This document shows, in pieces, positions 13,324-15,885 of a stretch of 64,000 bases of DNA; within the stretch, counting starts at the first letter, position 1, and every line of letters begins with the position of its first letter. The notes under the pieces were generated by a model. It saw only the letters and a program-made list of their open reading frames with translations. It had not been told where the DNA came from and searched no databases. The translations under genes and the position numbers were made by a program. The DNA lies in the NCBI RefSeq assembly GCF_003597675.1, contig NZ_CP030827.1, forward strand, positions 744,001 through 808,000, written 5' to 3'. Source of the DNA: Neorhizobium sp. NCHU2750. GTDB lineage: Bacteria; Pseudomonadota; Alphaproteobacteria; Rhizobiales; Rhizobiaceae.

Positions 13324-13590
13324 ATGACTGTTACGACCAAGATACGGCGGCAGGGCGGGGCTGCCGTGGTTACCATTCCTCCAGCCGTGCTGAAGATGAT
13401 GCAGCTCGATATCGGGGATCAACTGTCACTGGAGATTTCCGAGGGCGAGCTGGTGGTGAAGCCACTTCGAGCTGTGAAGAAGCGTTACAAGCTCAGCGAA
13501 TTGCTGGAAGGCCAGGATCTCATGTCCGGCCTGAATGCGGATCTGGCCTGGGCGACGGAAGGGGATCCTGTCGGTCACGAGATCTCCTGA
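13324..13590 (+). CDS. mazE: MazE/AbrB-type antitoxin
   Basis: 88 residues. The N-terminal half is an AbrB/SpoVT swapped-hairpin DNA-binding domain (VTTKIRRQGGAAVVTIPPAVLK); the C-terminal half is expected to wrap the toxin. GGAG lies 9 bases before the ATG at 13324, so upstream in-frame starts are rejected. The stop overlaps the toxin start (TGATG), and the promoter carries a palindromic operator, as expected for an autoregulated module. Confidence 0.85.
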   Translation: MTVTTKIRRQGGAAVVTIPPAVLKMMQLDIGDQLSLEISEGELVVKPLRAVKKRYKLSELLEGQDLMSGLNADLAWATEGDPVGHEIS

Positions 13591-13955
13591 TGATCCGCAG
13601 CAACATTCCCAACCGTGGCGATGTCTTCTGGATCGACCCTAATCCCGTGGCTGGCCGGGAGATGAAGGACCGGCATCGTTTTGTCGTAATCACGCCGCGT
13701 GAAATCAACGCACTGGGCGTCAGCATGACGGTGCCGATCACCACAGGCGGTGCTTTTACCCGTCAGGCAGGACTGGCCGTTCCGGTCTCCGGTCGTGACA
13801 CGAATGGCGTGGCGGTCTGCAATCAGGTCCGCAGCTTCGACATTCCGGCAAGAGTTCAAAACAGGACCGCCCGCTACATCGAGACGCTGGATCGCGATAC
13901 GATCGATGAGATCGTCGCCCGCGTGCTGAGCGCCATCGATCCCGCCGCCGAATAG
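13590..13955 (+). CDS. mazF: MazF/PemK-type toxin (mRNA endoribonuclease)
   Basis: 121 residues, full length. The MazF fold is recognisable from RGDVFWIDPNPVAGREMKD near the N terminus, the RHRFVVITP strand, MTVPITTG and NQVRSFDIPAR. The family cleaves RNA at short motifs when free of antitoxin. The ATG overlaps the antitoxin stop, giving translational coupling. Confidence 0.88.
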   Translation: MIRSNIPNRGDVFWIDPNPVAGREMKDRHRFVVITPREINALGVSMTVPITTGGAFTRQAGLAVPVSGRDTNGVAVCNQVRSFDIPARVQNRTARYIETLDRDTIDEIVARVLSAIDPAAE

Positions 13956-14062: not shown

Positions 14063-14563
14063 TCACGCGATCGCCTGGGTGTAGCGCATGCCGGTGACCG
14101 GACGCGGCTTGAAATCCATGTGTTCGTAGAAGCGGTGGGCAGCCGAATTGCCGGTCGTGGCGCTGACCGAGAGATAGCCGCAGCCGGCGCTCTTGGCGAT
14201 ATCGCGGGCGCGGGCGACGAGATGCTGGCCAATGCCATGGCCGCGCTGGCCGTCACGCACGAAGAGATGATGCAGGTCCATGCCGCGTGCGCCTTCCTGG
14301 GCGCGGTAGAGCGGCACGAGAATGGCGTAGCCGATCAGCCCGTCGCCGGTATCGGCAACCAGCGCGGTAATCCACGGCATATCGGAAAACAGGTCGCGCT
14401 CGAGAATATCCGGCGTCATCGCCGACGCATCGTGATGATGGGCGGCGAGTGCTGCGATCATCTCGTTAAGTTCGGGCAGGTCGTGGCGCTTGGCGTGGCG
14501 AATATTCACCACGGCAGGGCGGGGGAGCGAGATTTCGCTGTCTTCGGTGAGTGTCTGAGTCAT
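14063..14563 (-). CDS. GNAT-family N-acetyltransferase behind a leader-peptide attenuator
   Basis: 166 residues from the second ATG (14561-14563), chosen because AAAGGA lies about 8 bases upstream; the first ATG at 14572 abuts that site. The acetyl-CoA loop is GQRGHGIGQHL, preceded by LHHLFVRDG and followed by AAHRFYEHMDF, a complete GNAT fold. Substrate unknown. The upstream DNA holds a leader peptide and terminator arranged as a ribosome-controlled attenuator, unusual for a GNAT gene. It is convergent with mazF. Confidence 0.85.
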   Translation of the reverse strand: MTQTLTEDSEISLPRPAVVNIRHAKRHDLPELNEMIAALAAHHHDASAMTPDILERDLFSDMPWITALVADTGDGLIGYAILVPLYRAQEGARGMDLHHLFVRDGQRGHGIGQHLVARARDIAKSAGCGYLSVSATTGNSAAHRFYEHMDFKPRPVTGMRYTQAIA

Positions 14564-14606
14564 TTCCGGCATCCTTTGGTCTTGTGGTGCCGTCAGGTGC
14601 CGTCTG

Positions 14607-14637
14607 AAACAACAAAGCCGCCTGACGGCGGCTTGTT
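14607..14637 (-). terminator. Attenuator terminator upstream of the GNAT gene
   Basis: On the minus strand AAGCCGCC, loop GTCA, GGCGGCTT forms a perfect 8-bp stem followed by a T-rich tail (TTTGTTGTTT). AACAA before and TTGTT after allow the stem to lengthen with one bulge. It lies about 45 bases before the GNAT start codon, so it would end transcription before the gene. Confidence 0.75.
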
Positions 14638-14663
14638 GACATGATGATCTGTCGAGCCGCCCT

Positions 14664-14717
14664 TTACAGGTAGGCCCAAAAATACTTGGCGGCGGTGGTG
14701 AGGCGCGTATTGATCAT
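14664..14717 (-). CDS. Leader peptide rich in aromatic residues
   Basis: A 17-residue frame, MINTRLTTAAKYFWAYL, ends in TAA at 14664-14666. An in-frame ATG four codons earlier (14727-14729) would give 21 residues. Codons 12-14 are Tyr-Phe-Trp and codon 16 is Tyr, an arrangement like leader peptides of aromatic biosynthesis operons. No strong ribosome site is seen. The call rests on the matching of this frame to the downstream alternative hairpins. Confidence 0.6.
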   Translation of the reverse strand: MINTRLTTAAKYFWAYL

Positions 14718-14834
14718 GGCGGCTCTCATGCGCCTGTCTTGAAGGCTTGTCAAGCGCATGATGGCCAACGGATCGCTTCCGTCGTATGCTGTTTGCAAAG
14801 ACAGTCAGACAAATCGGGATGCGAGTATCCAGTC

Positions 14835-15468: not shown

Positions 15469-15885
15469 TCAATGCTCCCCGTCGCATAGCCCGTGGTCGG
15501 ACAGCGAGCGGATCACGTAGCAATCCTCGATCGCATGGCCGCCGTCGCAATGGGAGACGATGCGTTCCAGCTCCTGTTCGAGCTTCTTCAGCTTCTCGAT
15601 CTTGTCGCGCACATTCGCAAGATGGTCGGCGGCAATCCGGTCGGCATCGCCGCAGGGCTGCTTGGGGTGGTCGCCGAGCAGGATTAGTTCGCGGATCGCC
15701 GCGATGTCGAGTCCGAGATCGCGCGCATGGCGGATGAAGGCGAGCCGTTCGAGATCCTGCCGCTCATAGCGCCGCTGGTTGCCCTCGGAGCGCTCGGCAG
15801 CCGCAATCAGCCCCATCTGCTCGTAGTAGCGGATGGTCGGCACCTTCACCCCGGTCCGTTTCGAAAGATCGCCGATCGATAGCAT
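15469..15885 (-). CDS. MerR-family metal regulator, ZntR/CadR-like
   Basis: 138 residues. A MerR winged-helix N terminus (MLSIGDLSKRTGVKVPTIRYYEQMGLI) is followed by a dimerisation coil. Metal-site residues C78, C113, H117 and C122 line up with the zinc ligands of E. coli ZntR (C79, C114, H119, C124), with an extra C134 near the end. That suggests zinc, cadmium or lead sensing. It is divergent from dmeR; CTATAG-TCT-CTGGAG between them (about 15899-15913) is a weak dyad that may be its own operator. The target gene is not adjacent. Confidence 0.8.
   Translation of the reverse strand: MLSIGDLSKRTGVKVPTIRYYEQMGLIAAAERSEGNQRRYERQDLERLAFIRHARDLGLDIAAIRELILLGDHPKQPCGDADRIAADHLANVRDKIEKLKKLEQELERIVSHCDGGHAIEDCYVIRSLSDHGLCDGEH

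Follow-up and report, generated by a model that had tools for sequence, protein, structure and literature searches.

The described systems closest to the locus analyzed here are leader-peptide attenuators with aromatic control codons. In excerpts of PMC7298713 and PMC10117765, trpL of S. meliloti is described as leaderless, and its attenuator RNA, rnTrpL, is described in part of the former paper as trans-acting. In C. glutamicum, the AroR leader in front of aroF contains Phe-Tyr-Phe and is subject to ribosome-mediated attenuation, in which Phe limitation acts and Tyr availability does not (passages of PMC11802643, citing Neshat et al. 2014). The same passages present the E. coli pheST attenuator, which makes a tRNA-synthetase operon a possible target.

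The window is a 64,000-nucleotide stretch of the Neorhizobium sp. NCHU2750 genome (contig NZ_CP030827.1, positions 744,001 to 808,000). It contains, at 14717–14607 of the minus strand, an attenuator comprising a leader ORF, an antiterminator (pairing 2:3) and a terminator (pairing 3:4), upstream of a gene for a GNAT acetyltransferase. Comparative analysis makes it highly probable that this is a ribosome-mediated transcription attenuator, which would turn the GNAT gene on when charged tRNA-Tyr, tRNA-Phe or tRNA-Trp is short.

Organization of the locus and conservation of the leader

The elements of the locus, all on the minus strand, are the following.

14748..14753, minus strand: TTGACA, predicted −35 element, read in the sequence, 17 nt before CATGAG
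14730–14725, minus strand: CATGAG, 17 nt past TTGACA, read in the sequence
14664..14717, minus strand: leader ORF MINTRLTTAAKYFWAYL and its stop, 17 codons, read in the sequence and kept in 80/80 and 41/41 loci
14688..14693, minus strand: segment 1 of the original prediction (GCCGCC), not conserved
14684–14676, minus strand: control codons TAT TTT TGG, inside the leader ORF
14672–14670, minus strand: control codon TAC, inside the leader ORF
14655..14662, minus strand: segment 2 (GGGCGGCT), 5' arm of the antiterminator, read in the sequence, pairing counted
14627..14634, minus strand: segment 3 (AAGCCGCC), common to terminator and antiterminator, pairing counted
14629–14621, minus strand: GCCGTCAGG, the end of segment 3, the loop and the start of segment 4, partner of segment 5
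14615..14622, minus strand: segment 4 (GGCGGCTT), 3' arm of the terminator, read in the sequence, pairing counted
14614–14607, minus strand: interrupted T tract (TTTGTTGTTT), directly 3' of segment 4
14589..14597, minus strand: segment 5 (CCTGACGGC), complement of GCCGTCAGG, from pairing and co-variation
14063..14572, minus strand: GNAT acetyltransferase gene (Pfam PF00583), 169 amino acids from the ATG at 14572, alternative start ATG at 14563

The leader ORF reads ATG ATC AAT ACG CGC CTC ACC ACC GCC GCC AAG TAT TTT TGG GCC TAC CTG TAA. It is followed by segment 2, a small GACA/TGTC stem, segment 3, the loop GTCA, segment 4, the T tract and the GNAT gene. Because TTGACA stands 36 bases before the leader AUG, the predicted promoter suggests a transcript that starts at or beside this AUG (14717) and is leaderless, as for S. 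meliloti trpL. The predicted start lies near 14717 and not downstream of 14660, the placement that the original prediction had named as refuting it. A TTGAC was read 34–39 nt upstream of the leader ATG at 121/121 GNAT orthologue loci, and 34–37 nt upstream at 32/32 loci from two other families. Neither the promoter nor the fifth segment (14597–14589) appeared in the four-segment drawing of the original prediction, and both were found in the sequence. Rfam gave no match in the window at gathering scores.

The genes around the attenuator include a MerR-family regulator near CadR/CueR (15472–15885, minus strand; below the equivalog cut-offs) as the upstream neighbor. A ParD-like antitoxin with a weak, below cut-off match to TIGR02606 (14790–15490, plus strand) is divergent from the attenuator promoter, and the ParE-like reading that follows it appears by eye to be split over two frames. 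Directly downstream of the GNAT gene, on the opposite strand, lies a MazEF toxin-antitoxin pair of the Agrobacterium type (13339–13955, plus strand; NCBIfam NF052488 and NF052489). With crude ORF calling, no aromatic-metabolism gene was recognised beside the GNAT gene, although there are neighbor families that recur.

Two orthologue sets were compared. For the first, contigs of named genomes were scanned and the best 80 of 219 GNAT relatives, with 75–92% identity, were kept. The second came from 199 genomes of the window's family, 42 of which, the window's own included, have a GNAT orthologue (E 4e-33 or better); the 41 further loci were read, down to 43% identity, and two of them share identical upstream DNA with loci of the 80-locus set. 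A short ORF ending in YFW[AL][YF][LR] precedes the GNAT gene at every one of the best 80 of the 219 relatives. ORFs whose core is Tyr-Phe or Phe-Tyr stand at the matching distance before segment 2 in 80/80 and 41/41 loci, the first aromatic codon being 23–28 nt from segment 2 in 121/121. As judged by this comparison, such an occurrence is far beyond chance, and the leader frame with aromatic codons that had been claimed in front of the GNAT gene is borne out. The attenuator was found in all 42 family genomes (of 199) that have the GNAT orthologue.

Codons for Y, F and W are present in 40 of the 41 family loci, the exception (L120) having Y and F without Trp. The order of the codons changes: W-Y-F replaces Y-F-W in six of the 41 loci and W-F-Y-Y does so in one. 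In the leaders the C-terminal six residues are conserved and the N-terminal part is variable; the last residue may be L, R, P or S. The frame and the stop position are kept while other leader bases change. The Phe place is TTT in 87/88 distinct leader ORFs and the Tyr place is TAT in 84/88; in the GNAT genes, counted over redundant loci, TTT makes up 28 of 585 Phe codons and TAT 144 of 576 Tyr codons. A slow codon at these places may sharpen the response, or the bias may reflect a constraint at the RNA level; TATTTT is near-invariant as DNA, and part of the constraint may therefore be on the RNA. Frameshifting at the TATTTTTGG run was considered and dropped on reading, as single-base indels between the leader and the gene disrupt the downstream frame.

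Alternative pairings and the fifth segment

Pairing was counted in an alignment of 53 sequences, thinned to at most 93% identity and made up of the window plus 52 of the 121 loci. The 2:3 pairing is kept in 89.1% of cells, above slid controls; 5 of its pairs co-vary and 18 cells are doubly changed. Its paired percentage and its doubly changed cells were reached by 0/500 shuffles and its pair count by 6/500. The co-variation sits at the edges of the helix because the core hardly varies. In a smaller alignment of 47 sequences (without L019, L025, L092, L120, L121 and L127), 2:3 pairs in 91.0% of cells and segment 5 in 97.4%. The terminator stem GCCGCC/GGCGG is present in 122/122 sequences; its pairs are nearly invariant in the 53, and little co-variation is therefore seen there. 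The T tract after the hairpin is interrupted in the window, and two loci (L101, L102) have no T there. The antiterminator, mutually exclusive with 3:4, and the terminator between leader and GNAT gene thus agree with the original prediction, and an alignment across orthologues, which it had proposed as a check, finds both the leader frame and 2:3 conserved.

The 1:2 pairing of the original prediction did not hold. As drawn, it pairs in 59.6% and 59.7% of cells in two counts, the latter on the 53 sequences, compared with up to 58.7% for slid controls; 9/500 shuffles pair as highly and its co-variation is within the shuffle range, and it was rejected as a conserved hairpin. It can form in the window itself, at −15.1 kcal/mol. 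As judged from the alignment, the 1:2 pause hairpin is lineage-specific in the window; it is part of the classic layout and is not essential to this kind of attenuator. Of the predicted four-segment attenuator, then, the attenuator stands upon deep comparison, whereas the drawing does not, since segment 1 is not conserved and a fifth segment exists.

A plain fold of 14590–14740 is moderately better than shuffles (z −2.0; 5/200 shuffles equally good). The effect of a ribosome was modeled by folding only the RNA ahead of it, on the assumption that the ribosome covers 13 nt counted from the A-site codon. When the codon for Tyr12, Phe13 or Trp14 is in the A site and segment 3 has just been made, the RNA ahead folds into 2:3 at −15.8 to −16.4 kcal/mol; with Tyr16 there, 2:3 forms partly (−9.5 kcal/mol), and a ribosome at the stop codon covers segment 2. 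Once segment 4 is present, the window's 3:4 pairing is more stable than its 2:3 pairing; since 3:4 wins at equilibrium, antitermination would have to be kinetic. A fold with a masked ribosome gave 3:4 at every position and was set aside, pairing across the ribosome having been permitted.

Segment 5 stands about 19 nt past the terminator stem. A perfect complement of at least 8 nt between segment 5 and the terminator loop with its flanks occurs in 102/122 sequences. In the 53 sequences this pairing is kept in 96.2% of cells, with 4 co-varying pairs and 19 doubly changed cells, compared with 19–51% of cells for slid controls. The paired percentage, the doubly changed cells and the co-variation score were each reached by 0/500 shuffles and the pair count by 12/500. 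Loop variants are matched by segment 5: GCCATCAGG occurs with CCTGATGGC, GCCGCAAGG with CCTTGCGGC, and GCCTTCGG with CCGAAGGC. In a swap control, the own downstream region beats the mean of the other hairpins in 12/16 hairpin types; under the stricter demand that it beat every other hairpin, it does so in 6/16, partly owing to G-U pairs. Elements like segment 5 were also detected, at p 0.05 or less, at 8/16 tyr and trp loci and at 21/32 loci of two other families. Segment 5, present likewise at certain trpE and tyrS loci and in one further family, is a conserved feature of these attenuators. Because RNA polymerase makes it after passing the terminator, it can have no direct say in whether transcription ends; its role may be to stabilize the read-through form, to act close to the start of the GNAT gene, or to serve as target for the leader RNA once released.

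Related attenuators in Alphaproteobacteria

A covariance model (R1) gave 44 matches of at least 50 bits in the 199 family genomes, the next best scoring 31.9 bits. Of the 44, 42 are the GNAT loci, and the other two are second matches within genomes of that set. Both extra matches carry a Tyr-Tyr leader; one (L158) precedes tyrS (NCBIfam TIGR00234). The other (L159, near position 2001) is an orphan Tyr-Tyr attenuator with no tyrS ORF behind it in the 4.1 kb examined, and it adjoins, by reading, an IS66-like transposase ORF. Among 15 lower-scoring matches examined, seven, at 22.7–28.7 bits, are WWW leaders of trpE (identified by reading), and in the other 8 (L160–L163, L169–L172) no leader was recognised. 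The one trpE locus of the seven that was tested (L164) matches Rfam RcsR1, which we take to be rnTrpL of S. meliloti, at 61.1 bits. Three attenuators tested against Rfam at E 0.1 (L001, L158 and L185) had no match.

In the order, 12 of 297 genomes have a match at E 1e-5. The seven order matches outside the family precede tyrS (L175, L176, L180, L181) or prephenate dehydrogenase (L177–L179) and have YY or YFYY codons; the genes of L175 and L177 were confirmed by family models and the other five identified by reading. In the class, a second model (R2) matched 13 of 385 genomes at E 1e-5, window included, so that most genomes of order and class are without a match at this threshold. These class loci include tyrS (L183, by reading), trpS with WW codons (L190), prephenate dehydrogenase (L194, and L189 by reading) and, behind WYF leaders, GNAT genes (L184–L187, L191). 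The leader of L189 has a GTG start and runs through the expected stop. At L190, trpS stands behind the leader MVNRPHLPAFIWWRSF, an attenuator for tryptophanyl-tRNA synthetase. Two loci precede S4 genes, one encoding an S4-domain protein (L192) and one S4-like by reading only (L188), whose product has no family match; these small proteins resemble the end of tyrosyl-tRNA synthetase, and their leaders have YF and WYF codons, respectively. One further R2 match (L193) is a plain terminator in which no leader was recognised.

In a second family (f118), 70/75 genomes match at E 1e-4, with 73 matches. Of 31 loci read, 30 have WYF with an in-frame ATG and one is tyrS with FYY. A GNAT gene follows in 29 of the 30 WYF loci; the remaining one, a short locus (L210), shows no downstream ORF. 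The GNATs borne by these leaders are about 30% identical to that of the window. Orthology is not claimed, since the two search directions disagree: it is supported in 4/6 genomes by the forward search and in none by the reverse one, the leader-borne GNAT being the best match in 0/5 genomes having one, while the sixth (G856) has its leader before an S4-like gene.

Across the related attenuators the control codons match the downstream gene, with Tyr codons (some with Phe) before tyrS or prephenate dehydrogenase and Trp codons before trpE or trpS. The match is not strict, because Phe codons also occur in part of the leaders of tyrS, prephenate dehydrogenase and trpS. The attenuators found at tyrS, prephenate dehydrogenase, trpS and small S4-domain genes suggest that a broader regulon under aromatic attenuation exists in Alphaproteobacteria.

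Proposed mechanism and comparison with known systems

That the attenuator reads the charging of tRNA-Tyr, tRNA-Phe and tRNA-Trp is well supported by these comparisons. The transcript, probably starting at the leader AUG, would be translated at once. A ribosome that passes Tyr-Phe-Trp and reaches the stop codon would cover segment 2, allowing the 3:4 hairpin to form and transcription to end near 14607. A ribosome waiting at Tyr12, Phe13 or Trp14 would leave segment 2 free, 2:3 would form before segment 4 is made, and RNA polymerase would then read through into the GNAT gene.

The original prediction had offered, as one reading, an enzyme that may act on an aromatic metabolite and, as the other, a leader that senses a ribosome-stalling drug. 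In a switch of the latter sort, in the style of TnaC or ErmL, the nascent chain ending in YFWxYL would, within the exit tunnel, halt the ribosome on meeting a small molecule that the GNAT then modifies. The conserved C-terminal residues of the leader, next to its variable N-terminal part, would suit an arrest peptide; drugs are often GNAT substrates, and NCBIfam gives weak matches to resistance acetyltransferases, far under their cut-offs. However, the order of W, Y and F is not fixed (YFW, WYF, WFYY and YF only) and the last residue varies, and in the related attenuators the codons are chiefly for the amino acid that belongs to the downstream gene, with Phe present too in some. A changing order with a constant aromatic composition fits codon sensing and not an arrest peptide, and an arrest peptide is accordingly unlikely. 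A response to aromatic charging is favored because the codons match the genes in related attenuators and their order can change; a drug that lowers the charging of aromatic tRNAs is a possible signal.

It is somewhat less probable still that the codons of a translated leader are irrelevant, with TATTTT and the hairpins forming a binding element for a protein or sRNA or the terminated RNA acting mainly in trans. The near invariance of TAT TTT as DNA, the further conserved pairing of segment 5 with the terminator hairpin and the precedent of rnTrpL would agree with this, while the codon-to-gene match and the retention of frame and stop position among varying leader bases argue for translation of the codons as signal. 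A constitutive 5' terminator with a decayed attenuator, left from an ancestral tyr or trp attenuator and without regulatory role, is very improbable: the related attenuators in front of tyrS, prephenate dehydrogenase and trpE make co-option plausible and one orphan copy exists, but every GNAT orthologue read has the leader and a terminator stem, most cells of the 53 sequences retain 2:3 and 3:5 pairing, and W, Y and F codons also precede GNATs of another family.

Beyond its Pfam assignment, the GNAT protein matched 14 NCBIfam families and reached the cut-off of none. The structures most like its AlphaFold model (pLDDT 82.9) are acetyltransferases of the SSAT, thialysine and plant NATA kinds, with 18–27% identity. 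The closest solved folds are the SSAT/thialysine N-acetyltransferases 2fe7, 2bei and 3bj7 (Foldseek E 3e-10 to 1e-9, TM 0.70–0.75), and 2bei is also the nearest solved structure by sequence (E 2e-7). The identity to these three is just 23–27%. By predicted fold and weak sequence similarity, the protein resembles diamine/thialysine acetyltransferases. It would most likely acetylate a small amine. That the effect of this amine is to lower the supply or charging of aromatic amino acids is a guess, and a doubtful one.

The probable joint control by Tyr, Phe and Trp of a lone acetyltransferase is a strong clue to the job of an uncharacterised GNAT, and the similar switches before tyrosine and tryptophan genes elsewhere hint that the enzyme serves cells short of these amino acids. 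Tentatively, a joint Tyr/Phe/Trp shortage would be a dedicated GNAT induction signal in at least two orders of Alphaproteobacteria. The enzyme would counter a threat to the common aromatic pathway or to the charging of aromatic tRNAs; acetylation of an amine inhibitor or an amino-acid analogue would be an example. Segment 5 would be a second layer, binding the terminator hairpin of the read-through mRNA itself (in cis) or acting in trans from the released leader RNA.

Titles and abstract openings of the open-access papers searched yielded no GNAT or acetyltransferase leader-peptide or attenuation system like this one, nothing on these peptide strings or on aromatic or Tyr-codon attenuation of this kind, and no such attenuation of tyrosyl-tRNA synthetase in proteobacteria. 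Some of the tyr or trp leaders may be described in the survey of Vitreschak et al. 2004, which the papers on these systems cite. Term searches of PMC2573895, PMC1273637, PMC4833913 and PMC10117765 gave no mention of an acetyltransferase. Most likely, the mechanism is classical and the combination of target (a lone GNAT) and signal (Tyr, Phe and Trp) is new, together with the conserved fifth segment.

As far as the sources go, the E. coli pheL-pheA and pheST attenuators resemble the GNAT attenuator in being ribosome-mediated and in having Phe codons; unlike it, they respond to one amino acid and control a gene of its own metabolism or charging. C. glutamicum aroR is the one precedent found in these partial sources for multi-aromatic control. 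Its leader, like that of the GNAT gene, involves more than one aromatic amino acid, and differs in its DAHP synthase target, in having no Trp among the codons named and in belonging to another phylum. The S. meliloti trpL-trpE(G) attenuator likewise has a leaderless leader ORF, control codons before segment 2, GC-rich 2:3 and 3:4 stems and a single downstream gene. Compared with it, the GNAT attenuator has no Rfam match at E 0.1, has Y, F and W codons in place of WWW, controls a GNAT, and carries a fifth segment whose partner is the loop together with both flanks and not mainly segment 4.
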